DNA from: a virus
Virus record (IMG/VR): IMGVR_UViG_3300036832_000548
Span: 1 to 64,000 of that record
Strand: one strand, 5' to 3'
DNA: 64,000 nucleotides
The notes beneath the pieces were generated by a model. That model saw only the letters and a list, made by a program, of their open reading frames with translations. It was not told where the DNA came from and searched no databases. A program made the translations under genes and the position numbers. Within the stretch, counting starts at the first letter, position 1. Every line of letters begins with the position of its first letter. Of this stretch, positions 63 through 27,369 are shown piece after piece.

Positions 63-1682
63 ATGGGATTGCGAGGAATTGGAGCGAGGCCGTTATCGGC
101 GCGTTCGCATCCATTAGATCCAAAGGTCAAGGCGGCGAACAAGCGTTTGCCGTGGATGAAGAAGACGTTGACGACGCGGTCAAGTCGGGTGATTGCGTTT
201 TGTCAGGACTTGACGGTGACGAGCGGCCCGGACGCTGGCAAGAAGCTGGTGTTGAGGCCGTGGCAGAAGGCGTTCATCGAGGATGTTTATCGAGTTGACG
301 CTGATGGCATCAGGCCTGTGCGGACGGCGGTGCTGTCGATGGGGCGCAAGAACGGGAAGACGCAGCTCGCGGCGGCGTTAGCGTTGTGCCACTTGTGTGG
401 ACCGGAGGCAGAGAGCCGGGGCGAGATCTATAGCTGCGCCAACGACCGCTTTCAGGCGGGAAAAATTTTTAACGAAATGGTAGCCCTGGTCGACAAGCAT
501 CCGTACTTGCGTGAGCGCACCAACATTGTGAATTTCCGCAAGGACATTGTTGATATGGAGACGGGGTCGATCTATTCGGCGCTGTCTTCTGAGGCACGGA
601 CCAAGATGGGATTGAATCCATCTTTCTGTTGCTATGACGAGCTTGGGCAGGCGGGTGATCGTGAGCTCTATGATGCGATGGATAGCGCGATGGGCGGTCG
701 CAAGGAGCCGCTGCTGCTGGTGATCTCGACGCAGGCGGCGGATGATTTTGCGCCGATGTCGCAGCTCATCGATTATGGGATCAAGGTCAATGCCAAGGAC
801 ATTATTGATCCGGCGTTTCATCTGACGCTGTTTCGGGCACCGGAGGATGCGGACCCGTGGGCGCTGCAGACATGGAAGGCGGCGAACCCGGCGCTGAACG
901 ATTTTCGGTCGCTGTCGGATCTGGAGCGGCAGGCGAAGCAGGCGCAGCGGATGCCGGCGCAAGAGAGTTCGTTCCGCAATCTGATTTTGAACCAGCGCGT
1001 GAGCGCGCACACCAAGTTCATCGAGCGCAGCGAGTGGAACGCCTGTGATGGCGAGCCTGACATTCCGATTGGGGTACCGGTGTATGCGGGGCTCGATCTG
1101 GGGGCCACGCGCGACATGAGCGCGCTGGTGATCGTGCATCAGGATTTCAACAACGTCTTTCATGTCGTCCCGTACTTTTGGCTTCCCGGTGATGTGCGGG
1201 ATCGAACCGACAAGGACAAGGCGCCGTATGAGAGCTGGGTGCGGCAAGGTTCAGTGATATCGTCGGGAGCGACGACGGACCCTGCGGTGATCGCGCACAA
1301 GATTGCGGAGATCAACGGTCAGAACAAGATCCAGACGCTGGCGTTCGACCGCTGGCGGATCAACGATCTCAAGCGCGAGCTGGACGCCATCGGGTGCTAT
1401 GTGCAGCTCGTCCCCCACGGCCAAGGGTTCAAAGATATGTCCCCGGCTGTGGACGTGCTCGAGCGGCTGGTGGTGCAGCGCCGGATCAGGCATGGGGGTA
1501 ATAAGCCGCTGGCGATGTGCGTGGCCAATGCGACGATCTCGCGCGATCCTACTGGCGGTCGCAAGCTGGACAAAGCGAAGAGCACGGGGCGGATCGACGG
1601 GATCGTGGCGCTCGCGATGGCGTTTTCGCTGGCGCTGATCAAGAGCGAGCGACCCATAGACGTGGAAGCTTTGATTGGGTGA
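63..1682 (+). CDS. terL: Phage terminase large subunit
   Basis: Motor ATPase and nuclease that cuts concatemeric phage DNA and pumps it into the prohead. A Walker A-type loop (GRKNGKT) lies at about residues 94-100, an acidic Walker B-type strand (CCYDELG) near 187-193, and the C-terminal half starts an RNase H-like nuclease with a conserved Asp strand (GLDLGATRD, near 343). The length of 539 residues is usual for Terminase_1/HK97-type large subunits. AAAGGA about 10 bases before the ATG supports the start. No small subunit is visible in the 62 bases to the left, so it lies outside the window or is absent. The next gene begins 7 bases after the stop. Confidence 0.95.
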   Translation: MGLRGIGARPLSARSHPLDPKVKAANKRLPWMKKTLTTRSSRVIAFCQDLTVTSGPDAGKKLVLRPWQKAFIEDVYRVDADGIRPVRTAVLSMGRKNGKTQLAAALALCHLCGPEAESRGEIYSCANDRFQAGKIFNEMVALVDKHPYLRERTNIVNFRKDIVDMETGSIYSALSSEARTKMGLNPSFCCYDELGQAGDRELYDAMDSAMGGRKEPLLLVISTQAADDFAPMSQLIDYGIKVNAKDIIDPAFHLTLFRAPEDADPWALQTWKAANPALNDFRSLSDLERQAKQAQRMPAQESSFRNLILNQRVSAHTKFIERSEWNACDGEPDIPIGVPVYAGLDLGATRDMSALVIVHQDFNNVFHVVPYFWLPGDVRDRTDKDKAPYESWVRQGSVISSGATTDPAVIAHKIAEINGQNKIQTLAFDRWRINDLKRELDAIGCYVQLVPHGQGFKDMSPAVDVLERLVVQRRIRHGGNKPLAMCVANATISRDPTGGRKLDKAKSTGRIDGIVALAMAFSLALIKSERPIDVEALIG

Positions 1683-2239: not shown

Positions 2240-3310
2240 ATGCTCGACAAAGTCAGCGAGCGCACGGCCCCAACCTTCACGCCGCGGCGTGATCCGCCGC
2301 CTCCGGGCAATCTGCTGTGCCGCTACATCACGGCGCATGCCAAGGCGTTCGTGGCGCGGATGCCGCCTGAAGAGGTGGCGCGCGATTGGTGGCCTGACGA
2401 TCCCATGGTCGCGACCTTACTGCGCGCGGCCTCGACCCCGGCGCAGGTCGGGCAAGCCGGATGGGCGGCAGAGCTGGCGCGCCGCATCGTCAACGATACG
2501 CTCGAGGTGCTGGCCCCGGCCTCAGCATCAGCCGCAGTGTTCCAGAGATCGCCGCAGCTCTCTTGGGGCAACGAGGCGATCATTTCCGTGCCGGGATTTG
2601 CCGCTGGCACGTCAGGCAAGACCAGTGTGTTCGTGGCAGAACGCCAGCCGATTCCGGTCTATCAGCCGCTGGTATCGGCGGCGCAGCTGCTCCCGTACAA
2701 GCTCGCGGGCATCATGGTGGCGACCCGCGAGGTGATCGAAGGCAGCAACGCAGAGTCGCTGATCGAGGATCTCATACGGCAATCGTTCGGACGCGCGCTG
2801 GACGAGGTTTTGATCGACGCCAATCCCGCAGCGGCCAATCGGCCTGCAGGCCTGCGCAATGGCGTGGTGGCACTCACGGCGACCACCGGCGCGGATGCGT
2901 GGGGCAATTTTATCGCGGACGTGAGCAAGCTCGCGGACGCCGTCTCCCCGGTGTCGGGCAATGCCCCGCTGGTCTTCATCGGCTCCGCTGGCCGCAAGAT
3001 GCGCGCCAACATTCTGGGCCTTGACGACCTCGATGACGCAGAGGTGTTCGGATCGAACGCGGTGATCAACGATTTCATGTGCATCGCCACGGCGGCGTTG
3101 GTGTCGGCGGTCGGCGTCCCGGAGGTCGAGGTCCAGAAAGTCGGCACGCTGACCATGGACGACGCGCCTGCAGCTGACCCGACAACGCCTGTCGGGACCT
3201 ACAAATCGCTGTGGCAGACCGACTCGTTCGGCATCAAAGTGCGCTGGCCGTTGAGCTGGGCAATGCGCGATTCGCGCGGCTTTGCGTGGCTGACCCCAAC
3301 AGGATGGTGA
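2240..3310 (+). CDS. HK97-type major capsid protein paralogue (stand-alone)
   Basis: 356-residue protein whose C-terminal two thirds resembles the HK97 capsid fold family and, more directly, the capsid half of the fusion protein at 7418-9694: both contain RPAG[LI]xNGVVALTAT and a C-terminal block with QTDS, a following basic strand and P-L-[SN]-W-A. It has no protease or scaffold domain of its own. The N-terminal 100 residues (Pro-rich, then helical) are not matched in the paralogue. The frame is open back to 1997, but the ATG at 2240 follows AAAGGAACC and begins after the previous stop. It could be a second shell protein, a decoration protein derived from a capsid gene, or the main capsid protein processed in trans; the sequence does not decide. 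Confidence 0.8.
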   Translation: MLDKVSERTAPTFTPRRDPPPPGNLLCRYITAHAKAFVARMPPEEVARDWWPDDPMVATLLRAASTPAQVGQAGWAAELARRIVNDTLEVLAPASASAAVFQRSPQLSWGNEAIISVPGFAAGTSGKTSVFVAERQPIPVYQPLVSAAQLLPYKLAGIMVATREVIEGSNAESLIEDLIRQSFGRALDEVLIDANPAAANRPAGLRNGVVALTATTGADAWGNFIADVSKLADAVSPVSGNAPLVFIGSAGRKMRANILGLDDLDDAEVFGSNAVINDFMCIATAALVSAVGVPEVEVQKVGTLTMDDAPAADPTTPVGTYKSLWQTDSFGIKVRWPLSWAMRDSRGFAWLTPTGW

Positions 3311-3314
3311 CGAC

Positions 3315-4523
3315 GTGCTGCGCAAGCCCGTCATGAAGGCTGCAGAGTTCGGCGGGTTCGAACCACTCGACCTCGCGCCGGTGATCGTGTGCGAGCACAC
3401 GCAGACCGGCTGGCGCGGCCTGACCAAGGACGGCGAGATCCTCAACGTCAGCGGACACGTCAACGGATCGCAGCTCGACATTCCGCCCAATCTGGCGATC
3501 ACCCGTGGCGGCAACATCATCGGCTATCACGCGATCGACGTTGAACCCCACGACGGCGTCATCGCGGACTATCTTGAGCACCTCAACGCCGCGACCGCCT
3601 TGGTGCGCGACAACGACGCTCTGCAGGCCTTGAAGGAAATCGATTGCGCGCTGACCTGCGCCGCGACCGTGCTCGCCCGCTACAACCGCGCCATGATCCT
3701 GCTGCAGCTGGGCCGCTGGGACGAAGGTTTTGCGGAGTGGGCGGACTGCGAACAGACCTCGCCACTGTTCCGCCGCCCGCAATACGTCAAGGCCATCGAG
3801 CACGGACTCCAACCATGGCGCGGCGAGGAGATCGCCGGTAAGAAGCTGTTGCTGATCCACGACCACGGTTTTGGCGACACCATCATGATGCTGCGGCTCG
3901 TCCCGCTGCTCAACCTGATGGGCGCAGAGGTCGTGCTGCAGCTGCCGCAGGAGCTGGAGCGCCTCGCCGCGCAAGTCGCGCCGGTCACTCGCGACCTAGT
4001 CGATGCGGATTTTGTGTGCTCGATCCTGATGCTGCTGGCACAGCCGCAGCTAGGCGACACCAAAAAGATCATGGCCAGCGCGCCCTACCTGCAGGTCGAC
4101 ACTGGGCTGCAGAACAAATGGCTTGAGCGGCTGGGCTCGCATCACCGGCGCATCGGCATCGCTTGGTCAGTAGGTGTCGACCACAAGGACGATTTTCCGC
4201 GCACCATCCCGGTCGCGTATCTGGCGCAGGAATTGGCGCGCGACGGCGAGCTGATCACCGTGCAACAGCCGCTAACCGGCGAACGGTTCGAGGATTTTGC
4301 GGATTGCGCCGCGCTGATGAGCCTGCTGGACGAGATCGTCACGGTCGACACCGCCGCCGTGCATCTCGCCGGCGCGATCGGCCACCCGCGCATCACCCTG
4401 CTGCTGTCGCACTGGTCGAGCTGGCGCTGGCGCTTGCCGCTCTATCGCAACCTGCACATCTGCCAGCAGGAAACCGCGGGCGATTGGGCCAGCGCGCTCG
4501 CCGCCCGCAAAGCCGCGCCATGA
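3315..4523 (+). CDS. TPR / glycosyltransferase family 9-like protein
   Basis: 402 residues. The N-terminal 90 residues are unlike the rest. Residues about 95-150 look like one or two TPR helices (ALxxxDxAL, RYNRAxxLLxLGRWxEGFAEW). The remainder resembles the GT9/ADP-heptosyltransferase-like half of TPR-glycosyltransferase proteins: GKKLLLIHDHGFGDTIMMLR, a central RIGIAWSVG strand, and a C-terminal segment with DTAAVHLAGAIGHP that forms the nucleotide-sugar site in GT9 enzymes. A GTG at 3315 is used; an ATG at 3333 is the alternative. It overlaps the methyltransferase gene by ATGA, which implies coupled expression. Its place between two capsid genes suggests it glycosylates a virion protein or alters host surface glycan; this is inference. 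Confidence 0.75.
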   Translation: MLRKPVMKAAEFGGFEPLDLAPVIVCEHTQTGWRGLTKDGEILNVSGHVNGSQLDIPPNLAITRGGNIIGYHAIDVEPHDGVIADYLEHLNAATALVRDNDALQALKEIDCALTCAATVLARYNRAMILLQLGRWDEGFAEWADCEQTSPLFRRPQYVKAIEHGLQPWRGEEIAGKKLLLIHDHGFGDTIMMLRLVPLLNLMGAEVVLQLPQELERLAAQVAPVTRDLVDADFVCSILMLLAQPQLGDTKKIMASAPYLQVDTGLQNKWLERLGSHHRRIGIAWSVGVDHKDDFPRTIPVAYLAQELARDGELITVQQPLTGERFEDFADCAALMSLLDEIVTVDTAAVHLAGAIGHPRITLLLSHWSSWRWRLPLYRNLHICQQETAGDWASALAARKAAP

Positions 4524-5119
4524 TGTTGCTGCCGACTATTCCCATCAGCAATCTGCCGGTCGGACCCATGCCGGTCGATTGGCAGGATCTGCCGCCGACC
4601 TATCTGAATTTTGGCGAGTTGGAGATCATCGTTGCGCTACTGCGAGCTGCGGCACGCCAGGACATCATCGTTGAAATCGGGCTGGCTGAGGGCCGCACCG
4701 CCAAGGCGATCTTAAGGGAATTGCCGCATGTGCAGAAATATATCGGCATCGATACCAGTGATGCGGGGTATCAGCCCAAACTGCGCAGCCAATGGACTGA
4801 ACGCTCGCCGTCGCCGGGATATCTCGCGCTCAACGAACCGCGCTTCGACCGCTGGCTGCTTCCACGCGGATCGCTCGACTTGACTGCTGACGACTTTCCG
4901 CCGGTTGATGCGGTGTTCATCGATGGCGATCATTCCTCAGAGGTCGTGCGCCATGACAGCGATCTCGCCCGCGCCATCGTGCGCGAAGGCGGCATCGTGA
5001 TCTGGCACGATGCTTCGAACGTGTCAGTCGAGGTGCATAGTGTGCTCACTCGTCTGGTAAACGAGGGTTGGCCAATCAATCAGATCGAAGGGACATGGTT
5101 GGCTTTTATGAAGGTCTAG
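4520..5119 (+). CDS. Class I SAM-dependent methyltransferase
   Basis: 199 residues. The nucleotide-binding motif I is present as VEIGLAEGRTAKAIL (about residues 51-65), followed by YIGIDTSD (motif II acidic strand) and VDAVFIDGDHS (motif IV, with the Asp-His pair typical of Methyltransf_24-type enzymes acting on glycans and small molecules). The closing GGIVIWHDA strand is also typical. The ATG overlaps the upstream stop as ATGA. Fourteen bases of its 3' end, including its stop codon, are also the 3' end of the HNH gene on the other strand. Probably works with the glycosyltransferase upstream. Confidence 0.8.
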   Translation: MMLLPTIPISNLPVGPMPVDWQDLPPTYLNFGELEIIVALLRAAARQDIIVEIGLAEGRTAKAILRELPHVQKYIGIDTSDAGYQPKLRSQWTERSPSPGYLALNEPRFDRWLLPRGSLDLTADDFPPVDAVFIDGDHSSEVVRHDSDLARAIVREGGIVIWHDASNVSVEVHSVLTRLVNEGWPINQIEGTWLAFMKV

Positions 5120-5585
5120 CAAATTCGCCGTGCAGTTCCTGAGCGGCATCTCGATACGCGGCAAATGCTTCAGCTTTAGTTTTGAAACGGCCCAGATGAA
5201 TAAAATGCCCGTTGACTGATATTGTTGCTCGCCATGGTCGCTGTTTGATCGCTGCTGAATATGAAACGCCTTTAAATCCGCTAGCGTTGTTTTTATTTTT
5301 CGGACGGTTCTGTTGGTTCTGTGATCGTGTTGAAAGACGGAGATTCGTGAAGCGATTATCCGTGCCCTTGCCGTTGCGATGATCAATCCATTCGGACGGC
5401 ATTGTGCCTGTCATCCACAGCCATGCGATACGATGCACGTAATAAGTTTTGTCAGCAACACGAACGACCAAATAGCCGTTTGTGAGCGTCCCTACTTTCT
5501 TGCCCGTAGTTCTGCGTTTGAGAAGGCCCGTATGCGGATCGTACACAAACAACTTTCGCACCCGAGACGATGTGAGCTTGGACAT
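5106..5585 (-). CDS. HNH homing endonuclease with C-terminal AP2 domain (copy 1)
   Basis: 159 residues on the minus strand, opposite to the head genes. An HNH_3-type nuclease fold runs through YYVHRIAWLWMTG and EWIDHRNGKGTDNRFTNLR (DH...N motif, about residues 66-83). It is followed by an AP2-type DNA-binding unit (FKGVSY...WRATI...LGRFKTKAEAFAAYRDAA). This is the standard layout of phage free-standing homing endonucleases, which cut cognate sites and spread by repair. It ends inside the 3' end of the methyltransferase gene. A second copy of the same family stands at 6896-7390. Confidence 0.92.
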   Translation of the reverse strand: MSKLTSSRVRKLFVYDPHTGLLKRRTTGKKVGTLTNGYLVVRVADKTYYVHRIAWLWMTGTMPSEWIDHRNGKGTDNRFTNLRLSTRSQNQQNRPKNKNNASGFKGVSYSAAIKQRPWRATISVNGHFIHLGRFKTKAEAFAAYRDAAQELHGEFARPS

Positions 5586-5599
5586 AGCGAAAGCATAGC

Positions 5600-5695
5600 A
5601 TGAAATGGTGGGAGCGCCTGCTGATCGTGCTCGCCATCATGGGCGTGATGATCATCGCGCTCATCATCCTGTTGAGCTTCCCAACTCCACTGTGA
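5600..5695 (+). CDS. 31-residue single-span membrane peptide
   Basis: Tiny frame starting MKWWERLLIV with a 22-residue hydrophobic segment and ending SFPTPL. It lies in the short gap between the 5' end of the first HNH gene and the next head gene and is followed 9 bases later by that gene. Upstream AAGCATAGC is a poor ribosome site, which lowers confidence. Tiny membrane proteins are common in phage morphogenesis operons; no function can be given. Confidence 0.4.
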   Translation: MKWWERLLIVLAIMGVMIIALIILLSFPTPL

Positions 5696-5704
5696 GCAAA
5701 GATC

Positions 5705-6133
5705 GTGAGCACGCAGCACCCCACCGTGGAACTGATCGCCGGCGACGATTGGGAAATCGCCATCACGATGCTGGACGATGCGGGCAACCCGTTCGACCTC
5801 ACCGGCGCGACTATTTCATGGACGCTGATCGATGACGGCGGGCAACAGTTCATCGCACCGGACGAGGTGACCGTATCCGTCGCCACCGACCCCACGACCG
5901 GGGTCGCAACGGTCACCGTCCCCGGCACGGTCACCACCAGACTGAAGACATTCCTCTATCACGACGCCACGCGCATCGTCGTTGCAGGAGTAACCACAAC
6001 GATCTTGGTGGGCGACATCAAGGTCACCTCAGATCCGTTCGTGCCGCCCGTGCCGGTCTACAAGTTCACCAGCAAGGTGACAGGCGCGATGGGAGCGACT
6101 GAAGCTGCTGACACGGCTGATGTTGCAGCATAG
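5705..6133 (+). CDS. Phage structural protein, beta-sandwich-like, with a terminal repeat unit
   Basis: 142 residues. The segment LxAGDDWEIAITMLDDAGNPFDLTGATISWTL is typical of small phage proteins with an immunoglobulin-like or BppU N-terminal-like beta fold. The tail GAMGATEAADTADVAA matches one unit of the 21-residue repeat that fills the 928-residue protein at 49324-52110. GTG start at 5705. It lies between a membrane peptide and a GNAT-like gene and is probably a minor virion component; no exact role is recognised. Confidence 0.6.
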   Translation: MSTQHPTVELIAGDDWEIAITMLDDAGNPFDLTGATISWTLIDDGGQQFIAPDEVTVSVATDPTTGVATVTVPGTVTTRLKTFLYHDATRIVVAGVTTTILVGDIKVTSDPFVPPVPVYKFTSKVTGAMGATEAADTADVAA

Positions 6134-6144
6134 GACGCAGGTCC

Positions 6145-6909
6145 ATGCCCAGCGAAGACGTGCATGAGGTCGCGCAAGCGAATTTCGAGTTCTACAAGGT
6201 CGATGGTGACGTAGCCAGGGACCTTGGACACGACAAGCCGGTCAACGACATGAAGGACGCGGTGCGCGAGGTCGGCGCACACCCTGACCAAGTGCATAAC
6301 GTCGTGCAGCATGTGCTCGAGGCCGCAGACGAAAGCGGCAGCGCAACGAAGGCGCGAGAGGAATTTGATTTCAGCGGGCCGTTCGAAAAGCACCACGACG
6401 CCGCGCTCACCGTGCTGGAACAACACGAAGCAAAAAAACCAAAGGATTGGGGAGAGAGCAAAAAGTGGGAAGGCTGGCCCGATGACGTGACGATCAGTCA
6501 TGAGGCGACGAAGACCACTGTGACTATTAAGTCATTCGGAAGAGATCACAAATATACGGATGGGCAATTGCGTCAGGTGTTGGTGACTGATCTCTTCACA
6601 CCGGAAGAGTTTCGTGGAAAAGGCGGCGCTCATGCGGTAATGACGAAGGTTGAGACATTTTTGGACGTGCATAATCTGGTTGCAGTGCTTAATGCGCCGC
6701 CAGATGAAGAACGACCAGGTCTGCCTCAGCTTCATGCGCTTTATGCGCAGCATGGATTTTTCGCAGGCGCAAATAAACTTGAAATGATCAGATTACCCGG
6801 CGGGGTGAAGCCGACTGAAAAACCCAAGCCAAAAAAGGTTTTGATCCCGACGAGCCGCGCGATGAACAAGGCCGCTGGAGCGATGAGCGAGGCAACTAGC
6901 GAGGCCTAG
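6145..6909 (+). CDS. GNAT-like acetyltransferase domain protein
   Basis: 254 residues. The N-terminal 110 residues are charged and helical, without a recognised fold. The central part resembles a GNAT domain: VTDLFTPEEFRGKGGAHAVM corresponds to motif A with the acetyl-CoA loop (RGKGGA), followed by a helix, a VAVLNAP strand and LYAQHGFF, the usual end of GNAT domains. The C-terminus is Lys/Pro-rich. An alternative is a phage structural protein with a GNAT passenger domain. It is the third putative modifying enzyme between the two capsid genes. Its last 14 bases overlap the second HNH gene. Confidence 0.6.
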   Translation: MPSEDVHEVAQANFEFYKVDGDVARDLGHDKPVNDMKDAVREVGAHPDQVHNVVQHVLEAADESGSATKAREEFDFSGPFEKHHDAALTVLEQHEAKKPKDWGESKKWEGWPDDVTISHEATKTTVTIKSFGRDHKYTDGQLRQVLVTDLFTPEEFRGKGGAHAVMTKVETFLDVHNLVAVLNAPPDEERPGLPQLHALYAQHGFFAGANKLEMIRLPGGVKPTEKPKPKKVLIPTSRAMNKAAGAMSEATSEA

Positions 6910-7390
6910 CGAATTCACCGAAATGCGTGCGGGCTGCGACCATGTAGGCGGCGTGAGCTGCGCGCCGGGTTTTGAACCGACCGAGATTGATTGTTTTGTA
7001 ATTCACTTTGATGCGGGCGGCATAAAGGCCACGGGCTTTATCGAATGTCACACCTTTCGGAGTGGATTTCTGTTTCTTGCGCCATCGTTTGCTGTTCGCT
7101 CCGTTGGTCGAATAGTTGGCCTGACGCAAATTGCTCCAGCGGTCATCGGAAGGATTGCCATTCGTGTGATCGATCATACGGCGGGGCCAACGCCCAGTCA
7201 TGTGAACCCAAGCCAAGCGACCTGTCATGTGGATGACTTGGTCAAGGCAAATCTGCCGATGACCATCATGACGCAGAGTGCCAGCAATATCGCCAGCTCT
7301 GACGTGCCCCTGACGATTGACACGCCAAAAGAACAAACCGGATGCCGGATCGTAGTCGAGCAGTGCTCGCAATCGTTTCGCCGTTAGCAT
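6896..7390 (-). CDS. HNH homing endonuclease with C-terminal AP2 domain (copy 2)
   Basis: 164 residues, minus strand, same family and layout as the gene at 5106-5585. The HNH part includes RLAWVHMTGRWPRRMIDHTNGNPSDDRWSNLR split across residues 60-92 (DH...N motif), followed by an AP2-like unit (PKGVTFDKARGLYAARI...LGRFKTRRAAHAAYM). The C-terminus FGEFARPR closely matches GEFARPS of copy 1. The start is taken at the ATG at 7388-7390 (MLTAKRLRALLDY), because the longer upstream frame runs antisense through the protease-capsid gene. Its 3' end overlaps the GNAT-like gene by 14 bases, exactly as copy 1 does with the methyltransferase. Confidence 0.92.
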   Translation of the reverse strand: MLTAKRLRALLDYDPASGLFFWRVNRQGHVRAGDIAGTLRHDGHRQICLDQVIHMTGRLAWVHMTGRWPRRMIDHTNGNPSDDRWSNLRQANYSTNGANSKRWRKKQKSTPKGVTFDKARGLYAARIKVNYKTINLGRFKTRRAAHAAYMVAARTHFGEFARPR

Positions 7391-7417
7391 CTCCGATCTC
7401 CCTTGCAGGAGGCCATT

Positions 7418-9694
7418 ATGCCTATCAAGCCAGGAAAAGACGAGACGCAGTCGGAATGGATGGCCCGATGCACGCCTGAGATGATTGGCACCGGCGACAA
7501 TAAGCGCCCGCAGGAACAGGCCGTCGCGATCTGCCTCGACATCTGGCGCAACAAGGACAAGACCGCCATGAAACAATCGATCAAGCAATCGTTGCAGCCG
7601 GAAGACGACGAAAGCTATCAGGATTTCATGGACCGCTGCACTGACGAAACCGACGATCAGGATGTCTGCCAGACGCTCTGGGAAGATCGTTCCGTTGGCG
7701 GCATCAAACACAAGACCCACGCCGGCGAGGTCGACGGCACGGAGTATGTGCTCTCTGACGAAACCATCGACCGGATGGGCGACATCATCGAGGCTGACGG
7801 CTGGGATTTTACCAATTTCAAGAAGAACCCCATCGCGCTCGGATTTCACCGTCCCGATTTTCCGATCGGCAAGTGGGCCAATCTTCACATCACTAAGGAC
7901 AAGGAGCTGCGCGGCAAGCTCGAGCTGGCACCCAAGGGCACGTCGCCGCGCCTCGATGAGGTGCGGGCGTTGGTCGAGGCCGGGATTCTCAAGGCCGTAT
8001 CGGTCGGCTTCAAGCCGATCGACAGCATGCCCATCAATCCGAAAGATCCATGGAGCGGATCGCGCTTCATGAAGCAGGAACTGGTCGAATGCTCGCTGGT
8101 ATCAGTGCCGGCGAACGCCAACGCAATCGCGGTGGCAAAGTCACTGAAGCTTTCACCCGAAACGCTGAATCTCGTTTTCGCCGGGGCCGGCAACAAAGAC
8201 GGGACCATCAAGCGGCGCGGGTTCACTGGCGGGACCGCCTCGATACATCGCAACGGAAAGGGCGCGACCATGTCGCTAGCTCAACGAATTACTGAAATTC
8301 AGACCTACATCGGAACCAAAAGCGCCGAACTTGAGGAACACGTCGCGGCGCAGGACGACACCAACGTGTCGGATGAGCAGTACGAGAAGACCAAGCTGCT
8401 CAACGACCAGCTCGCCTCTGCCAGACGGCAGCATGCGATGCTGATCGAGGCTGAGAAGAACATTGCCCCCGGAGGCAGCAAGCCGAACGGCGGCAATGGC
8501 GCAACGCACAGCCGCGCGCTCGCGACGACCGCGTTCACGCAGACGCAAAGTCAAGAGCCGGTGGTGGCTCCAATCATCATCAAGTCCCGCAAGAAGGATT
8601 GGGACGCCATCGATCTACTGGTGCATGCCGGCGCTTCGATAATTGCCGCCAAGAACTGGGGCGTCTCCATCGACGCCGCGCGCACCAAGATCTACGGCGA
8701 GGATGAGCCGACCAAAGTCGTAACGGATTGGGTCATGCGTGCCCCGTCCGCGCCAGCCATGACAACCGTCCCCGGTTGGGCGCAGGAACTCGTCCATCAG
8801 ATCTACGCGGATTTGATGGGCCTGCTGTTTGCCAAGAGCATCTTCCCGCGATTGTCAGGAAGAGGCTTGACCTTGGCGTTCGGTCAGGCAGGCAAGATCG
8901 TGATGCCCACCCGCTCGCGCACGCCTTCGCTGGCTGGCAGTTTCGTAGGCGAGGGCATGGCGATCCCCGTGCGCCAAGGGGCGTTCACGTCTCAGACCTT
9001 CACGCCGAAAAAATTGGCAGTCATCTCCGTCTTCACGAGAGAGATGAGCGAGCATTCGATCCCGGCGATCGAGGGCGTGATCCGTGAGGCCATCGCGCAG
9101 GACACAGCGATTGCCATCGACAGCGTCCTGATCGATTCCAACCCGGCGACGACCATTCGTCCTGCCGGCATCCTCAACGGCGTTGTGGCCCTCACCGCGA
9201 CCGCTGGCGGCGGCATCCCGGCGATCGTGGGCGATCTCAAGCAGCTCGTCGGCGCGCTGATCACCAGCCTCTACGGCAATTTGCGCAACCCGGTCTGGTT
9301 GATGAACCCCGGAGACATGCTGTCCGCATCGCTGGCGACTGCGGTCAACACCGGCATTTTCCCGTTCCAGGAACAGATCAGCCAAGGTCAGTTGGGCAAC
9401 ATCCCGATAATTGACAGTGCAACAGTGCCGTCGAAGACCGTGGTGTTGATCGACGCCTCGGATTTTGTGACGATGCAAGGAGACGCAGTTCGAATGGAAC
9501 TTTCGGACACTGCGACGCTCCATATGGAGGACACAAATCCGCTCGATTTGGTCAGCGGTTCTCCTGGCACTGTTGCATCGCCGCAGCGTTCGCTATTCCA
9601 AACAGACAGCATCGCGCTTCGAATGATCGCGCCGCTCAACTGGGCCATCCGTCGCCCCGGCACCGTGGCGTGGACCCAGAGCGTCACTTGGTAA
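7418..9694 (+). CDS. Prohead protease-major capsid protein fusion
   Basis: 758 residues combining maturation protease, a helical scaffold-like linker and HK97-type capsid protein. Residues 1-85 hold two related Cys-containing segments (EWMARCTPEM...CLDIW and DFMDRCTDET...CQTLW). Residues about 95-240 match the HK97 prohead protease family, with the catalytic-His region GFHRPDFPIGKW (about 144), the Ser region AVSVGFKP (about 195) and the conserved VECSLVSVPA block. Residues 285-345 are predicted coiled coil (delta/scaffold-like). The rest is the capsid domain with IRPAGILNGVVALTAT. The ATG at 7418 follows AGGAGG; the TTG at 7403 is rejected. An in-frame internal ATG at 8270 could give the scaffold-capsid part alone. 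Confidence 0.93.
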   Translation: MPIKPGKDETQSEWMARCTPEMIGTGDNKRPQEQAVAICLDIWRNKDKTAMKQSIKQSLQPEDDESYQDFMDRCTDETDDQDVCQTLWEDRSVGGIKHKTHAGEVDGTEYVLSDETIDRMGDIIEADGWDFTNFKKNPIALGFHRPDFPIGKWANLHITKDKELRGKLELAPKGTSPRLDEVRALVEAGILKAVSVGFKPIDSMPINPKDPWSGSRFMKQELVECSLVSVPANANAIAVAKSLKLSPETLNLVFAGAGNKDGTIKRRGFTGGTASIHRNGKGATMSLAQRITEIQTYIGTKSAELEEHVAAQDDTNVSDEQYEKTKLLNDQLASARRQHAMLIEAEKNIAPGGSKPNGGNGATHSRALATTAFTQTQSQEPVVAPIIIKSRKKDWDAIDLLVHAGASIIAAKNWGVSIDAARTKIYGEDEPTKVVTDWVMRAPSAPAMTTVPGWAQELVHQIYADLMGLLFAKSIFPRLSGRGLTLAFGQAGKIVMPTRSRTPSLAGSFVGEGMAIPVRQGAFTSQTFTPKKLAVISVFTREMSEHSIPAIEGVIREAIAQDTAIAIDSVLIDSNPATTIRPAGILNGVVALTATAGGGIPAIVGDLKQLVGALITSLYGNLRNPVWLMNPGDMLSASLATAVNTGIFPFQEQISQGQLGNIPIIDSATVPSKTVVLIDASDFVTMQGDAVRMELSDTATLHMEDTNPLDLVSGSPGTVASPQRSLFQTDSIALRMIAPLNWAIRRPGTVAWTQSVTW
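8270..9694 (+). CDS. Possible internally initiated scaffold-capsid form
   Basis: The ATG at 8270 is in frame with the fusion (codon 285) and is preceded by GGAAAGGG at a suitable distance. It begins MSLAQRITEI, the first residues of the coiled-coil scaffold segment, so translation from here would give a 474-residue product equivalent to a free-standing HK97-type capsid precursor. The protease could then be made at low level as the long form. This nested start is inferred from position and ribosome-site resemblance only. Confidence 0.35.
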   Translation: MSLAQRITEIQTYIGTKSAELEEHVAAQDDTNVSDEQYEKTKLLNDQLASARRQHAMLIEAEKNIAPGGSKPNGGNGATHSRALATTAFTQTQSQEPVVAPIIIKSRKKDWDAIDLLVHAGASIIAAKNWGVSIDAARTKIYGEDEPTKVVTDWVMRAPSAPAMTTVPGWAQELVHQIYADLMGLLFAKSIFPRLSGRGLTLAFGQAGKIVMPTRSRTPSLAGSFVGEGMAIPVRQGAFTSQTFTPKKLAVISVFTREMSEHSIPAIEGVIREAIAQDTAIAIDSVLIDSNPATTIRPAGILNGVVALTATAGGGIPAIVGDLKQLVGALITSLYGNLRNPVWLMNPGDMLSASLATAVNTGIFPFQEQISQGQLGNIPIIDSATVPSKTVVLIDASDFVTMQGDAVRMELSDTATLHMEDTNPLDLVSGSPGTVASPQRSLFQTDSIALRMIAPLNWAIRRPGTVAWTQSVTW

Positions 9695-10170: not shown

Positions 10171-11616
10171 ATGGGCGCGCTCACTCGCATCGCTGACGGA
10201 TTCCGCACGCTGGTCCGCGCCACGGAAGGCGCGTTCAGGCCGGGGCCGTATTATCTGCCGGTGACGGGCGGATGGTTGCCTAACGGCGCAGCCATAAACT
10301 GGTGGCAGCAAGGCTACAACCCGATGGGTGCGCCGGGTTACGGCGCGATGGTCGAGGCCTGCCTCAGCGCCTACTCGCAGACGGTGGCGATGTGCCCCGG
10401 CTCGCATTGGCTGATGAACAACAAGGGCGGGCGCGACCGCGTCACCGTCTCAGCGCTGTCGCGCATCCTGCGGCACCCGAACGACTATCAATCGATTTCC
10501 GATTTCATGCTCAACCTGACGCGCTCGCTGTATTTCGACGGCAACGCTTACGCATTGTGCCTGCGCAACGACCGCTTTGAGATCGACGAACTGCATTTGA
10601 TGAATCCGCTCATGAGCCGCGCGCAGCTCGCGATAACCGGCGACGTGTTCTATACGCTGGCCGGCAACAACGTGATCGCGCAACGGATGGAGGGCGAGCA
10701 AAACATCTCACTGGTCGTCCCGCAACGCGATGTGTTGCATGTGCGACTGCATACGCCGGAATCTAAGCACCCGTTCCCGCTGCGCGGCGAGACGCCGCTT
10801 ATCGCGGCCTATGCCGACATTGCCACCAGCCAAGCCATCTCAAATCAGCAAATCCAGTTCTATCAAAACGAGGCGAGGCCATCGGCGGTGCTGCAGACCG
10901 ACATGGCACTCGACAAGGATCTGGTGCAGGCACTGACGGATCGATGGGACGAAAAAAGCCGGGGTCTGCATCAGGGCAAGACGCCCGTTCTCACCCACGG
11001 TCTCAAAGTGCAGCCCTGGTCCACGCCGGGAAAAGATGCGGCGATTGCGGAGATGATGAAACTCTCGCAGGAGCACATCGCGCTCGCGTTCCGCATCCCG
11101 CTGCAGATCCTCGGCATCGGCGGCACGACCTACAGCTCGACTGAGCTGCTCATGCAATCGTGGATCGCCAGCGGGCTTGGCTTCTGTCTCAACCACATCG
11201 AAGAAGCGTTTGGCGTGACCTTCAATCTGTGGGGACAGCCGGACGAGTACGTGGAGTTTGATACGGCGGCATTGCTGCGCTCTGCCTTCAAGGAACGCAT
11301 CGAAGGACTCGCGCGAGCCGTCCAGGGCGGTGTGTATAGCCCGAATGAAGCCAGAGCAATCGAAGGACTCGACGCGGTAAAATTTGGTGATGAGCCTAGG
11401 CTTCAGGCGCAGGTCGTCCCATTGTCCATTGCTGGTCAGATTCCGACAGCGCCCAGCGCGCCAGCCGCACCCGCACAGCCGGGGGCACCGCAACCGGACA
11501 AGCCGCCAGCACCATCGCAAGACGAGCAAGCCGCAAAACATCAGCGACGAGTACGAAGCCTGATCCATGCAGCAGATCAAATCGACCGACAGCGAGATCG
11601 AGAGCGAGTGGCCTGA
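10171..11616 (+). CDS. HK97-type portal protein
   Basis: 481 residues. Portal dodecamer subunit forming the DNA channel at the unique head vertex. Family features: N-terminal helix, the SISDFMLNLTRSLYFDGNAYAL block, DVLHVRLHTPE, a central QIQFYQNEARPSAVLQTD segment, and the characteristic EHIALAFRIPLQILGIGGTT...SSTELLMQSW run. The C-terminal 50 residues are a Pro/Ala-rich linker plus basic tail. The downstream collagen-like gene starts inside its last 50 bases. Portal lies after the capsid gene, the reverse of the usual HK97 order. Confidence 0.95.
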   Translation: MGALTRIADGFRTLVRATEGAFRPGPYYLPVTGGWLPNGAAINWWQQGYNPMGAPGYGAMVEACLSAYSQTVAMCPGSHWLMNNKGGRDRVTVSALSRILRHPNDYQSISDFMLNLTRSLYFDGNAYALCLRNDRFEIDELHLMNPLMSRAQLAITGDVFYTLAGNNVIAQRMEGEQNISLVVPQRDVLHVRLHTPESKHPFPLRGETPLIAAYADIATSQAISNQQIQFYQNEARPSAVLQTDMALDKDLVQALTDRWDEKSRGLHQGKTPVLTHGLKVQPWSTPGKDAAIAEMMKLSQEHIALAFRIPLQILGIGGTTYSSTELLMQSWIASGLGFCLNHIEEAFGVTFNLWGQPDEYVEFDTAALLRSAFKERIEGLARAVQGGVYSPNEARAIEGLDAVKFGDEPRLQAQVVPLSIAGQIPTAPSAPAAPAQPGAPQPDKPPAPSQDEQAAKHQRRVRSLIHAADQIDRQRDRERVA

Positions 11617-12970
11617 CGCCCTGCGCGACACGCTCGGCCAGGTCGTCGCTGACTTGCGCCGCCAGTGGCGGCTCGAGCATGAGGTCATGAGTTCGAACGC
11701 CGCGCGCACCATCGCGGAGCTGCGTGTTGATCTCAACAACCAGCGCACTGAGCTCGCCGCGATGTTCGCGGATACGGTTGTCAAGATGCAAGCGCAGTTC
11801 ACCGCGAGACTGGCTGAGCTGCGCGACGGCAAGGATGGTGCAGCTGGGCCGCAAGGCGACATTGGCCCAGCAGGGGCACAAGGCGAAAAGGGTGAGACTG
11901 GGCCGCAAGGCGAAGCAGGACCGCAGGGGCCGCAGGGCGCGGCGGGCGAGCTGGGCGCTGTTGGCGCTGATGGACCAATAGGTCCGCAGGGCGATCCGGG
12001 ATCGCAGGGCGAGCGTGGCGAACCTGGACCGCAGGGCGAGGCTGGAGCGCAAGGCCAACCGGGCAGCGTCGGCGCTGACGGCTTAACTGGGCCACAGGGC
12101 GAGCGCGGCGAAGCTGGCGCAGCGGGACGCGATGGTGACCACGGGCTCAAGGGCGATCCCGGCCCAGTAGGGCTGCAGGGCGAGCTGGGGCCTGTTGGAG
12201 ACGCAGGGCCACCGGGACCCAGCGGCGAACGCGGCGAACAAGGTTTGCCGGGGATCGCGGGCAAGGACGGCGTACCGGGAAAGCACGGCTTACAGGGAAA
12301 TCGCGGCGAGCGAGGACTTCGCGGCGAAACCGGACGGCAGGGCGAGCCAGGATTGCAGGGCGTTCCTGGCACTGCTGGCACTGCTGGCACAGATGGCGCG
12401 CCGGGAGAACGCGGGTCAGCGGGAGAGAAGGGCGAGCGCGGCGAACAGGGTCCGCGCGGCCTGTTGCAGATCGTCAAGACCTACGAGCCTGACGCTGTCC
12501 ACTATCTGGGCGATGTCGTTAGCCACGACGGCAGCACTTGGCAGGCAAAACGCGACACCGGGCAAGCACCGCCGCATCGGGACTGGATCTGCCTCGCTGC
12601 TGCAGCTCGCGCGATGCGTATCCGCGGCACCTACGAGACTGAGGAAACCTATGCCGCGTTCGATGTGGTGATGAAGGAAAGCTCGTCGCACATCGCACTC
12701 AAGAACGATCCCGGCCCATGTCCCGGTCCCGGCTGGCAGCTCCTGGCGGCATCAGGTCGGCGCGGCGTTGCTGGCGAGCGCGGCGCACACGGCGAGCGCG
12801 GGGCGAAAGGCGAGCGCGGTGATCCCGGCGAGGCTGGATCGATGATCGTCGGTTGGAAAATCGATCGCGAGAACTACACGATCACGCCTGTCGTATCTAA
12901 CGGTCAATACACCGTTCCGCCGCTCAACATGGGCGAACTATTCGAGCAATTCCACACCGAAACCAAATGA
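11567..12970 (+). CDS. Collagen-like virion protein with carbohydrate-binding-like segments
   Basis: 467 residues. Residues 1-87 are helical and probably coiled coil. From about 88 to 299 there is an almost unbroken run of Gly-X-Y triplets (about 70), able to form a collagen-type triple helix. Then come two related segments of about 40 residues (YEPDAVHYLGDVVSHDGSTW and YETEETYAAFDVVM..., each with a trailing W), resembling short chitin/carbohydrate-binding modules, a second short Gly-X-Y block and a beta-like end. The start overlaps portal by 50 bases and the stop overlaps the next ATG (ATGA). Likely a trimeric fibre on the head or neck; a tail role is less natural at this position. Confidence 0.85.
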   Translation: MQQIKSTDSEIESEWPDALRDTLGQVVADLRRQWRLEHEVMSSNAARTIAELRVDLNNQRTELAAMFADTVVKMQAQFTARLAELRDGKDGAAGPQGDIGPAGAQGEKGETGPQGEAGPQGPQGAAGELGAVGADGPIGPQGDPGSQGERGEPGPQGEAGAQGQPGSVGADGLTGPQGERGEAGAAGRDGDHGLKGDPGPVGLQGELGPVGDAGPPGPSGERGEQGLPGIAGKDGVPGKHGLQGNRGERGLRGETGRQGEPGLQGVPGTAGTAGTDGAPGERGSAGEKGERGEQGPRGLLQIVKTYEPDAVHYLGDVVSHDGSTWQAKRDTGQAPPHRDWICLAAAARAMRIRGTYETEETYAAFDVVMKESSSHIALKNDPGPCPGPGWQLLAASGRRGVAGERGAHGERGAKGERGDPGEAGSMIVGWKIDRENYTITPVVSNGQYTVPPLNMGELFEQFHTETK

Positions 12971-22284: not shown

Positions 22285-24468
22285 ATGCCTGACCAGACAG
22301 TCGAGATCAAACTAGTATTGCGGGACGAGCTGTCCAAGCAGCTTGCCCCTATTGTTGCGCAGGTCAGGCAGCTCAATCAGGCGATCGATACTACCCGCCC
22401 GCAACAGCACATGGAGCGGTTCGGCGGGGCCGTCCAGGGCGTTCGCCGCGAACTCTCCGCACTATCGCAGATCACTTTCGGCGGGTTGATCGGCGGCGGC
22501 ATTGTCGCTGGCTTAATGGCCACGGCAAAGGCGCTGGGCGACATGGCCAACCGTGGCCTCCAGCTCCGCTACAGTGCCGACGCGCTGGGCGTCACCACCG
22601 GGATGCTCAATCAATTTTCCGACGCCATGATGGGGCTCGGGAAATCGCGTGAGGCAGGTCAAGCAAGCATCGAGGCAGCAACCAAGTCGCTGCGCGAGCT
22701 ACAGATCGAAGGAGGACAGTCAAAGCTTTTCACTGAACTCGAGCGCGCCGGCGGCGAAACCGGCCAACGCCTCGCGCAAGAACTGGCGAAGGAGATCGCT
22801 GGACCGCGCGGCCTGCAGGGCGGTCTTGAGTATGCGATGCGCCGCATGGCGGGGATGCGACAGGAGTCAGCCGCCAAGTTCGCAGAAATTCTGGGGCTGG
22901 GGCCGGGGTTCGGTCGGGAGGCCGCGCGGGATTATCTGCAAGTCCTCGGGCAGCTCCCCAAGCGACTCGAACTTTCGCATCAGCAGCAGCTCGAGCTGGC
23001 AAAGGCCAATGCGAGCCTCGGCATCTCTTGGGACAATATCAAGACTACGCTGGCCGGATCGCTGCTCCCGATCTTCGCGCAGCTCACTCACACGCTCGAT
23101 CAGTTCCTGCAATCCAAGGCCGGTCAGGAATTCACCAAGCAGCTCGAATCATGGGGCCGCGAGATGAATGCCGCGCTCAAGGAGTGGCTTGAGGGCGGCG
23201 GCTTAACGCGACTGACCGAAACGCTCGGGACAGCGGTTGGCACGTTGAGGCAGGGATTTGAGGCCGCTGACAAAGTGGTCACGGCCATGGGAACGGATTG
23301 GGGGCACGTCCTAGGTGCGCTTGGGATCGCGGTGTTCGCCTCACAGTTGGCGGGCATTGCTTCTAGCCTCCGATTGATTGGAGGCATTCCCGGCATCGCC
23401 TTGATACTTGGTAGCCTCGCGCTCATCACAAAGCCAAAGATCGAGGACATCAAAGACCCGGCAAAACGTGCGCAAGCGGAAAAGGACGTAGCGGGCGGCG
23501 CAGCACAACCCGGCGACCCGTGGGCACTTTGGAATATTCTCAAGGATCTGTTGAAAGGCAACATCGATTGGAAATCGATGTTGCGCGAAGATCCGCTCCT
23601 TCCCTTTCCGGGCAGTGGGCAATCCAAGACTCCATCAGAGAAGCGCGCCGACGACGCAGCAAAAAAGAACGCGCAACAGCGCATCACCGAAGAGTTCAGA
23701 GATCTCGATTACGAACTCCAGAAGCTCAATCAATACCTCGCGCCGGGTGGACCAGAAGGCAGCGCAGGATCAAGCGGTTTCCAACTGCCTCCGTATCAGC
23801 AAAAAGATTTCACGTTCTATTATCCCGGTGCCAGCGGTGCGAAGGGAATGGAAGGACCGTTTGAAACCGCGCGAGCGGGATTGGACAAGCAATTCACTCC
23901 TAAAACACTTGATGATTTTCGGTTGGGGCTCACGCCCGCTGTTACGGTTGCTGGACCTGCGAGCAAATTGGGACAGTCGATCAACTTAGGCGATATCGAA
24001 TATCGCAGCCCGATTGATGGCAAAGTCTATCAGGTCCCTAATGTGCCGGGTTATGTGCATGATCGCGGCGGGGCATTCACAGAAGATAAACCAAACAAAC
24101 GCGACATCGCCGTTGGCGATTTTCGTGGCCTCAATCCTGTCACCGGCTTGCCATTCAATGACGCTACCGCAGAAGCGTTCAGCCGCGGGAACAAGCAATT
24201 TGCCGCCGGCACATTTCCAACAGCGTCAGGCTACGATGAAGCGGGCTTTACCGGCGAAGGCGTTGTCGGCACCGATCCGATCACGTCGCATCTCGCCACG
24301 CGCGATTCTCAATCCGTCAATGGCACCGCTACCGTCGACATAGACGTTGGCGGCATGACGCAAGCGATGCGAAATCCGAATGACCTGTTCAAGCCGCAAC
24401 CACTCGGCGGTTCAGTGCAAATGCAAAACGTGACGCGCCCAGACAACAATCCTATGAGTTTCCAGTAA
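22285..24468 (+). CDS. Tape measure protein paralogue 1
   Basis: 727 residues. N-terminal VEIKLVLRDELSKQLAP relates it to the next two genes (VEVVVRDEVTRALER, VEILVRDEATVALER). Long helical region with hydrophobic spans near 65-90 and 350-395 (FGGLIGGGIVAGLMATAKAL; GIPGIALILGSLALI), as usual for tape measures. The shared block SWDNIKTTLAGSLLPIFAQL...TLDQFLQ is present in all three paralogues. Its C-terminal 250 residues carry no recognised enzyme domain and it lacks the GFSPG end. Follows the frameshifted chaperone by 3 bases. Confidence 0.88.
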   Translation: MPDQTVEIKLVLRDELSKQLAPIVAQVRQLNQAIDTTRPQQHMERFGGAVQGVRRELSALSQITFGGLIGGGIVAGLMATAKALGDMANRGLQLRYSADALGVTTGMLNQFSDAMMGLGKSREAGQASIEAATKSLRELQIEGGQSKLFTELERAGGETGQRLAQELAKEIAGPRGLQGGLEYAMRRMAGMRQESAAKFAEILGLGPGFGREAARDYLQVLGQLPKRLELSHQQQLELAKANASLGISWDNIKTTLAGSLLPIFAQLTHTLDQFLQSKAGQEFTKQLESWGREMNAALKEWLEGGGLTRLTETLGTAVGTLRQGFEAADKVVTAMGTDWGHVLGALGIAVFASQLAGIASSLRLIGGIPGIALILGSLALITKPKIEDIKDPAKRAQAEKDVAGGAAQPGDPWALWNILKDLLKGNIDWKSMLREDPLLPFPGSGQSKTPSEKRADDAAKKNAQQRITEEFRDLDYELQKLNQYLAPGGPEGSAGSSGFQLPPYQQKDFTFYYPGASGAKGMEGPFETARAGLDKQFTPKTLDDFRLGLTPAVTVAGPASKLGQSINLGDIEYRSPIDGKVYQVPNVPGYVHDRGGAFTEDKPNKRDIAVGDFRGLNPVTGLPFNDATAEAFSRGNKQFAAGTFPTASGYDEAGFTGEGVVGTDPITSHLATRDSQSVNGTATVDIDVGGMTQAMRNPNDLFKPQPLGGSVQMQNVTRPDNNPMSFQ

Positions 24469-27366
24469 ATGGTAGCTCGCAAACCACAAACCATCGAGGT
24501 CGTCGTTCGCGACGAGGTGACGCGCGCTCTTGAGCGTGCGCGCTCGCATATGCGCCAAGTCGGTGGCGGCAAGGAAACACTGGGCGGCATAACGGGCGCG
24601 ATCAAGGGACTCGAGGGTGGCATCGAGTCAGTCGCACGCGGCATCAGCCGCGAGTTTGGCACGCTGGCCCGCATGGCGGGCGGCAGCTTGCTGGGTGCTG
24701 GTTTTGTCGCTGGCCTCAACAGGACGGCGCAGGCGCTGGGCAATGTGGCGCGGGCCGCAACGCAGCAGCACTATCTCGCTGAACAAATCGGGCTGACGAC
24801 GCAGCAGCTCGCAAATCTCACGGCTCGCGGTCGCGCGTTCGGCTTGGGTGTTGAGCAGACCACGGCTGGCATTTCGAGTCTCTCCAAAAATCTGCGCGAT
24901 CTGAAGATGCTCGGTCAGAACGCGCCCATTTATAAGTCACTCACGGAAGCGGGCGGCGGTAGTGGTCAGCGGTTTGGCGACAAGCTCATAGCAGCGGTCA
25001 GGGGACCTGGCGGCTACGACGCTGGCGTCCATACGTTTATCAAACTGATGTCGGAGACGAACGCTCAGGCGCAGAGCAAGCTCTCTGATATGTTTAATCT
25101 AGGTTCGATTGCGTTCCGCGATCTCGATTCTCTTGGTCTGGGCGATCTTCCAAAGCCGATTGTATTGTCTGATTCGGCAGCGCGCGATCTCACGCGCTCG
25201 ACGGCGCTTGCAGATCAGTCGTGGACAAATATCAAAAACACTGTCGGCGGCGCGTTGATGCCGGCGGTCGAACAGTTGGCGCGAACGCTTGACGCATTCC
25301 TGCAAGGACCTGGCGCAGGAATGCTCAAACAGTTTACAGACTGGGTTTCCAAGATCAACATCCCATGGGGAGCAATCGGCACCGCGCTGGCGAGTGCAGC
25401 CGGAATATTAAGCATGGCCTTCATCTGGGTGAAGAAGGCAATCGTGGAGGTCACTCCGATAGTCGATAAAATCGGCGGCTGGGGACCGCTTCTGCTCACG
25501 GCGGGTGCCGTGATCCAATACGGCAACGTCAACAAGGTCACGCTGAGCTTGTATGTCATCGGCGGTGCGTTGACCGTCATTGGCGAGCACGACTGGGTAC
25601 TCAAAGCACTCGCTGACGCCAGCAGATTGGCAATGGGGACGGGCAAACTGTCATCGCAGTTTGGATCGCCCTATTCGAGGAACATCGAGGACCGTCGCGG
25701 GCAGCCGTCCATACAGATGCCGCCGAATGCCAAGGCCATGCGCGGCGGCTACAACCTCATGAGCAGCACCACTGGCTCGAGCGACGACGATGACGATATC
25801 ACCAATGCGTTGAGTAATCAGCTGCAAAGCACCAGCGCGCAAGTCATGCAGCTGGCCAATATCGTGGCAACGCAGGGACTGACTCCCGATCAGCTCGGCG
25901 GCGGGACTGCAGGAGGAGGACAGATCCGCATTCCCAGCGCTGGTGGCGGCGGTGGCGGGTACACGCCGCGCCCGCGAGCTGCACCGCCGCCTTCGACACC
26001 ACGGACAACAACGCCACCGTCGACGCCACCGTCGACGCCGCCAGCACCGCCTCCATCGACGCCGCCAGTAACACCACCAACGCCATCTTCAACACCGTCG
26101 AGGCCATCCTCGACAACGCCTCCAGGGCCGACACCGGGACCAACACAGCCGCCGCCCGGAGGTACTAATAAGGGCGTGTTGCTGTTCGCGCACGGCCTTA
26201 CCGGACGCTATGCGGGGATGCACGGCAGCATCGCGCAAGTCGAAGCAGACGTTAAGCGATACGCGGCAGCGCACGGCTATAGCAGCGTTGAGTTCATTTA
26301 CGGCTCGCCCGCCGAACAAGAACGGCAAATGCTGGATCGGGTTAAGCGCGGAGGCGTCGGCGGCCTTTTGGGCTTTTCGGCTGGCGCTGGTCCTGCGCGA
26401 CGGGTCAGCAATGCGACCGGTGTGCCGGCGGTTACGACCGGAGCACCAAGAGTTCCAGGCGACGTGAGCCCCGCGAAACGTCACATGGACCAAATCCGCG
26501 TGCTGGCGGAACAGGAAGAAAGGAAACGACTACAACAAAATCCGACCGCGCAGCCACAAGTGCCAACCGCGAACCCGCAACAGCCGACCACCGGGCGGTC
26601 GGGATTGGTTTCGCCGGTCACCGGATCATTCGGTGAGAATTCGTCCAACCCATACGGCGCTGCTCGCAAGGGTGGGCGACCGCACTCCGGCGTCGATTGG
26701 CGCGCGGAGAATGGGACGCCAGCGGTTGCGATGATTGGCGGTGTCGTTACGCACGTCGGCTACGATAGAGGCGGTTACGACAACTATGCGGTGGTGAAGG
26801 GTGACGACGGCGTCTATCGTCGATATGCCTATCACGGGCGATCGCTTGTCCACAAAGGACAGCGGGTCGAGCAAAAGCAACCGCTTGGCATCATTGATCG
26901 GCGCCATCTGCATTACGAAGAAATCCACCCGAAATTGGCGAATGGCAAACCGAATCCGGTGTATGCGGAATTTGAGCGGAATGGCAACGCCAGCACCAGC
27001 TATCAACGCGGCACGTCCGATCCGTCGCAGACGCTCAATATGCCATATCGGACCAGGGTCACCGCAGGCGAACCGCTTGGCGGCCAACCTGCAACGGCAC
27101 AGCCTGCGCAAACGTCGCCAATCGTCTATTCGAACGAGGACGAGATCGAGCGGCTCAAATATAAAAAAGAATTGGACGAACAATATCCGCAGGGCGGCTA
27201 TACGCCGATTCCAAAAGGTCGCATCAGCGGCCTTGTCAATCTCCAGATCAATGTGCGCGGGCCGCGCGGCGTGAAAGTATCTGGCGAAGGTGCCGGGGTC
27301 GTAGGGCCTGCGAGCATCGACCGATCCGATCCCAGCGGCGGCATCGAAGGCTTCTCACCGGCATAA
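24469..27366 (+). CDS. Tape measure protein paralogue 2 with M23 peptidase domain
   Basis: 965 residues. Residues 1-400 align with the other two paralogues (VVVRDEVTRALERAR, the SWTNIKNTVGGALMPAVEQL block). A Gly-rich then Pro/Ser/Thr-rich linker spans about 490-560. Residues 568-660 look like an alpha/beta-hydrolase fragment (LLFAHGLTG; nucleophile elbow GFSAG near 635). Residues 715-840 are an M23 (LytM) endopeptidase with HSGVDW (about 738) and HLHYEE (about 812), which cleaves peptidoglycan cross-links. The C-terminus is DPSGGIEGFSPA. The tail tip would thus deliver a wall hydrolase with the tape measure. ATG overlaps the previous TAA by 1 base. Confidence 0.9.
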   Translation: MVARKPQTIEVVVRDEVTRALERARSHMRQVGGGKETLGGITGAIKGLEGGIESVARGISREFGTLARMAGGSLLGAGFVAGLNRTAQALGNVARAATQQHYLAEQIGLTTQQLANLTARGRAFGLGVEQTTAGISSLSKNLRDLKMLGQNAPIYKSLTEAGGGSGQRFGDKLIAAVRGPGGYDAGVHTFIKLMSETNAQAQSKLSDMFNLGSIAFRDLDSLGLGDLPKPIVLSDSAARDLTRSTALADQSWTNIKNTVGGALMPAVEQLARTLDAFLQGPGAGMLKQFTDWVSKINIPWGAIGTALASAAGILSMAFIWVKKAIVEVTPIVDKIGGWGPLLLTAGAVIQYGNVNKVTLSLYVIGGALTVIGEHDWVLKALADASRLAMGTGKLSSQFGSPYSRNIEDRRGQPSIQMPPNAKAMRGGYNLMSSTTGSSDDDDDITNALSNQLQSTSAQVMQLANIVATQGLTPDQLGGGTAGGGQIRIPSAGGGGGGYTPRPRAAPPPSTPRTTTPPSTPPSTPPAPPPSTPPVTPPTPSSTPSRPSSTTPPGPTPGPTQPPPGGTNKGVLLFAHGLTGRYAGMHGSIAQVEADVKRYAAAHGYSSVEFIYGSPAEQERQMLDRVKRGGVGGLLGFSAGAGPARRVSNATGVPAVTTGAPRVPGDVSPAKRHMDQIRVLAEQEERKRLQQNPTAQPQVPTANPQQPTTGRSGLVSPVTGSFGENSSNPYGAARKGGRPHSGVDWRAENGTPAVAMIGGVVTHVGYDRGGYDNYAVVKGDDGVYRRYAYHGRSLVHKGQRVEQKQPLGIIDRRHLHYEEIHPKLANGKPNPVYAEFERNGNASTSYQRGTSDPSQTLNMPYRTRVTAGEPLGGQPATAQPAQTSPIVYSNEDEIERLKYKKELDEQYPQGGYTPIPKGRISGLVNLQINVRGPRGVKVSGEGAGVVGPASIDRSDPSGGIEGFSPA

Positions 27367-27369
27367 AAA

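Follow-up and report, generated by a model that had tools for sequence, protein, structure and literature searches.

Two described systems use a second HK97-fold capsid protein in one shell. In SaPIbov5, the satellite-encoded capsid homologue Ccm forms the pentamers and the phi12 capsid protein forms the hexamers (PMC8569155), and in T4 the vertices are occupied by gp24, thought to be a duplicate of gp23, while gp23 itself makes up the hexamers (PMC9958956). Neither a capsid homologue borne by a satellite nor a vertex protein that arose by duplication is new in itself. Capsid genes are also frequent in the Gram-negative PICIs, with 21 of 29 reference islands having a major capsid gene (PMC10111431). 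A further group of phages (PHROG 617; PAJU2, JLK-2012 and FSL SP-016) fuses the capsid protein to its protease. The locus described here has elements of each of these systems. What is new about it is the origin and exchange of its stand-alone capsid gene, and not the possession of two capsid genes as such; in the literature searched we found no report in which a satellite-type capsid protein is retained by a complete phage next to the phage's own.

The stretch analysed (the window) covers the opening 64 kb of a virus record of 82.6 kb. Among its genes are those for TerL, portal, tail sheath, tail tube, three tape-measure-like proteins, endolysin and integrase, from which we conclude that it comes from a temperate contractile-tailed phage. 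We will refer to the stand-alone capsid gene and its product as MCP1 and to the protease-capsid fusion as FUS. The features needed below are as follows.

63..1682, plus strand: terminase large subunit (TerL; PF20441, PF03354), the left border of the variable interval that holds MCP1
2240..3310, plus strand: MCP1, stand-alone HK97-fold capsid protein, probably of satellite type, 356 aa, with AAAGGA upstream of the start
3315-4523, plus strand: GT9/TPR-like protein, between MCP1 and FUS
about 4520-5119, plus strand: methyltransferase, between MCP1 and FUS
5106..5585, minus strand: HNH endonuclease (HNH_3 + AP2), between the capsid genes
6896..7390, minus strand: second HNH endonuclease (HNH_3 + AP2), just upstream of the FUS gene
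7418..9694, plus strand: FUS, with an S78 prohead protease at aa 120-241, a coiled-coil/scaffold-like segment at about aa 285-355 and an HK97 capsid domain at about aa 386-758 (Pfam, PHROG 617, model)
8270..9694, plus strand: predicted capsid-only product of the FUS gene, 474 aa, starting internally at M285
10171..11616, plus strand: portal protein (PF04860), one copy

Several other genes of the window may be mentioned here. A P-loop kinase-like protein (AAA_33; 1675-2226) matches a PHROG named terminase small subunit, and a gene of the same type also lies between TerL and MCP1 in the relative L126. Right after the portal there is a collagen-like repeat protein (11567-12970) that is kept in relatives with varying repeat length, and at 22285-29883 three large ORFs follow in a row, each matching tape-measure or lytic tail protein families.

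Both capsid ORFs are open, and MCP1 aligns with the C-terminal half of FUS at 31% identity over 346 aa (BLASTP, E 1e-30), a value that rules out chance similarity. Both proteins score above the cut-off of 24.2 bits for Pfam PF05065 (Phage_capsid), MCP1 with 27.5 bits and FUS with 51.6 bits. The motifs from which a sequence-only reading had first recognised the pair are present in each, an RPAG motif (RPAGLRNGVVALTAT and RPAGILNGVVALTAT) and a QTDS block (QTDSFGIKVRWPLSWAM and QTDSIALRMIAPLNWAI). That reading had called for structure prediction of the two proteins, and modelled singly both folds are HK97-type: the AlphaFold models, of moderate confidence (pLDDT 75.4 for MCP1 and 71.5 for the FUS capsid domain), match solved HK97-fold capsids with a Foldseek probability of 1.00. 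A sequence search of the PDB with MCP1 alone gave no match, although a profile search did. Two HK97-type capsid genes in one phage, as the sequence-only reading had it, are thus borne out, as is its statement that only the fusion brings a protease, the Peptidase_S78 match in Pfam being limited to FUS; a full-length HK97-fold protein is unlikely to form the decoration layer that it also suggested. Neither the window nor the remainder of the 82.6 kb record yielded a third capsid gene.

The FUS reading frame starts at 7418 behind the Shine-Dalgarno sequence AGGAGG. Its PHROG 617 match spans aa 109-758, and it matches the fused protease and capsid of PAJU2, JLK-2012 and FSL SP-016 over aa 118-758; in each of these records, searches with MCP1 and with FUS hit one and the same capsid place. 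An ATG at FUS codon 285 (position 8270) is kept in most relatives and lies 6-8 nt downstream of the SD-like sequence GAAAGGGC. Because this internal start is conserved behind GAAAGGGC, it is likely that the FUS gene also gives a protease-free capsid product. MCP1 consists of the capsid fold and a short N-terminal helical part, and has neither a protease nor a delta-like coiled coil. Since it lacks both the protease and a scaffold-like coiled coil, MCP1 would most likely be unable to build a shell alone.

Orthologues of MCP1 occur in IMG/VR contigs, in a prophage of Bradyrhizobium stylosanthis BR 446 (L018) and in prophages of two more Bradyrhizobium genomes, and the presence of the same gene pair in independent contigs and in chromosomal prophages rules out a frame or assembly artefact. 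In the window MCP1 is a gene of the late operon, placed between TerL and FUS. Every one of the 16 contigs that reach far enough has FUS downstream of MCP1, although these contigs include two near-identical pairs and so amount to about 14 distinct ones. In L018 and L058 MCP1 is directly upstream of FUS, the two being about 84 bp apart in L018; the GT9/TPR-like and methyltransferase genes (3315..5119), which are missing between the capsid genes of these two, are kept as cargo in most relatives. The expectation that the pair always occurs together stands in one direction, in that MCP1 is never seen without FUS, but not in the other, since FUS is often found without MCP1 in related prophages and contigs. 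Ten relatives with a readable TerL-FUS interval (L019-L021, L064-L067, L069, L131 and L132) have FUS and no MCP1, which makes MCP1 an accessory of one FUS clade and no general part of the system, and in these ten the FUS product presumably makes complete shells alone. L120 (2875-9881) and L127 have three capsid genes, two tandem MCP1-like genes that are 40% identical, and FUS. We also note that in L074 (G106), a remnant prophage, a fusion-type capsid gene has decayed and is broken into several frames.

A profile search of 272 genomes with MCP1 retrieved lone capsid genes, about 24 of them, encoding proteins of 330-485 aa. Around these genes we find no portal (PF04860), TerL (PF20441/PF03354) or protease (PF04586), all of which the same searches detect in the paired prophages. 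Among the genes nearby are those for integrases, primases, an AlpA regulator and small terminases (TerS); this set is pooled across loci, not each of which showed every gene, and AlpA comes from a single locus. In three loci, direct repeats of tRNA ends that resemble att sites, of 56 bp (L084), 52 bp (L085) and 15 bp (L072), delimit islands of about 9.8-10.9 kb. In integrase, AlpA or primase, TerS and att repeats, and in the lack of TerL and portal, the lone-capsid islands match the gene content of PICIs, which measure 10-20 kb, and resemble the Gram-negative PICIs (PMC10111431) in integrase, AlpA, primase, TerS and capsid. The window differs from the latter in having TerL, portal, protease, sheath, tape measure, endolysin and integrase. 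A PICI-like, capsid-encoding island family is apparent in Bradyrhizobium (L070-L073, L075, L076, L078, L079, L081-L093); in the L075 island there also seems to be a baseplate domain like that of Mu gpP. Lone-capsid islands and fusion prophages rarely share a genome.

In phylogenetic trees, MCP1 and its orthologues (18 rows, support 100/99) nest inside the clade of lone capsids and away from FUS, with support of 100/98 for the split between lone capsids plus MCP1 and FUS; three lone capsids (L077, L080 and L094) place on the FUS side. The trees are unrooted, have several long branches and draw their lone loci mostly from one genus. AU tests, whose groups were defined once the first tree was known, reject a grouping of MCP1 with FUS to the exclusion of lone capsids (p 6.7e-6 and 4.7e-10), and also reject a single origin of all phage-borne extra capsids, the L062 type being separate (p 3.5e-6). 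For the extra copy in L120 the tree suggests a third independent capture (94/90) without support from the AU test (p 0.27), and an old duplicate of MCP1 is therefore equally possible. We consider it very probable from these relationships that MCP1 has satellite-type ancestry; the word 'paralogous', if taken as duplication within the phage, is not supported. With FUS as outgroup, movement from satellite to phage would be the simpler course, but an unrooted tree does not prove this direction.

Compared with Ccm, MCP1 is likewise an HK97-fold homologue of a phage capsid protein, of similar length (about 355 aa), that is no complete capsid system alone, and its relatives likewise reside in islands of small size that have an integrase, a primase and TerS. 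This likeness is one of fold, length and island context. The two differ in that MCP1 is found in a complete phage beside that phage's own capsid gene, the islands without portal, large terminase or protease being those of its lone relatives, and in that MCP1 has no coiled-coil or delta-like region before the capsid domain, where Ccm has its N-terminal delta domain, which is removed on assembly. The locus resembles T4 in that a single phage encodes a second HK97-fold protein in addition to the main one. It departs from T4 in descent, gp24 being a presumed duplicate of gp23 whereas MCP1 is no within-lineage duplicate of the FUS capsid.

MCP1 is under purifying selection (dN/dS 0.07-0.24), which indicates that the protein is used and, together with the intact ORFs, rules out a decayed gene. 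Nevertheless, in 88 of 91 phage pairs the FUS capsid domain is better conserved than MCP1. L059 and L060, two prophages in the same genome, have FUS capsid domains that are 100% identical and MCP1 proteins with 65% identity, and at the DNA level identity falls to 50-80% inside MCP1 with flanks mostly at 85-100%; between the window and L010, MCP1 is 43% and the FUS capsid 90% identical. These comparisons show MCP1 to be an exchangeable module, with alleles swapped independently of FUS. The HNH_3/AP2 genes beside MCP1 could drive this exchange (compare PMC10448857).

Because MCP1 lacks its own scaffold and protease, always occurs with FUS, belongs to the late operon and is maintained by selection, it fits the role of an accessory pentamer protein. 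The main shell protein is the FUS product, as the protease-capsid form and the putative capsid-only form. We propose that MCP1 may co-assemble with the processed FUS capsid, filling the pentameric vertices while the FUS product forms the hexamers, in the manner of SaPIbov5 Ccm with phi12 and of T4 gp24. The benefit could be a fixed capsid size, or it could lie in keeping satellites with a protein of this kind away from the vertex sites. A mixed shell, as the sequence-only reading had raised, is the leading reading, and co-assembly at the pentamers may quite possibly be the whole explanation; the vertex position in particular, which is predicted by analogy with the known systems, is plausible if somewhat doubtful. 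A number of observations argue against a vertex role. FUS is presumably sufficient in the ten relatives without MCP1, and MCP1 changes independently of FUS (65% versus 100%, and 43% versus 90%), and this is unexpected for a subunit that would touch FUS so closely; there is moreover a second MCP1-like gene in L120, and the delta domain of Ccm has no counterpart in MCP1. The apparent sufficiency of FUS and the free variation of MCP1 genuinely weigh against a simple structural role and speak for conflict.

Such a conflict could be with satellites: MCP1 would then be a captured capsid-remodelling protein that occupies or poisons the sites that satellite capsids need and so guards the phage's own packaging, and the exchange of alleles would be arms-race diversification. 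The closest relatives of MCP1 are satellite capsids, proteins of this kind have been paired with FUS at least two separate times (the MCP1 and L062 types, p-AU 3.5e-6), the alleles are swapped between otherwise near-identical prophages, MCP1 is the less conserved partner in nearly all phage pairs, and Ccm alone cuts the phi12 titre 1e3-1e4-fold (PMC5052747). However, these phages have not been linked to any satellite as its helper, the dN/dS values indicate purifying and not positive selection, and MCP1 invariably lies next to the capsid gene in the late operon, where a structural part would be expected, so that we regard this explanation as unlikely. We would give about the same weight to a broader account, in which satellite capsid proteins were captured more than once and kept as a swappable counter-weapon or vertex module, the phage turning the protein with which satellites take over a shell into a means of holding its own vertices, and exchanging alleles independently of the main capsid protein.

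An MCP1-dependent alternative capsid size, which was also among the original suggestions, is possible in principle: MCP1 might let the phage make a second capsid of other size or shape, for some of its progeny or for a partner element. The closest functional analogue has just this activity, Ccm turning the prolate phi12 capsid into a T=4 shell (PMC8569155), and MCP1, without scaffold and protease, would depend on FUS. A smaller shell, however, is no obvious gain for a phage of about 60-84 kb (records L117, G000 and L133), and we consider this explanation more doubtful still. It is improbable that MCP1 serves as a dominant-negative shell protein against related phages entering the lysogen; Ccm expressed alone does block its helper (PMC5052747) and co-resident prophages do carry different MCP1 alleles, but the place in the late operon suggests late-only expression, and such a protein would be harmful to the phage itself. 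The view that MCP1 began as a tandem, gp23/gp24-like duplicate within the phage and only afterwards reached satellites, for which the adjacency of genes of one family might speak, as might the place of MCP1 directly upstream of FUS in L018 and L058, is very improbable given the AU tests, with the caution that an unrooted tree leaves the direction of transfer unproven.

If MCP1 does work in the shell, as the mixed-shell reading has it, the locus would show that a protein of phage-satellite conflict has passed between the two kinds of element. Relatives with and without MCP1, swapped alleles within one genome and a phage with three capsid genes together constitute a natural experiment, which makes the reuse of satellite weapons by phages testable, and likewise a role in conflict or in a mixed shell.
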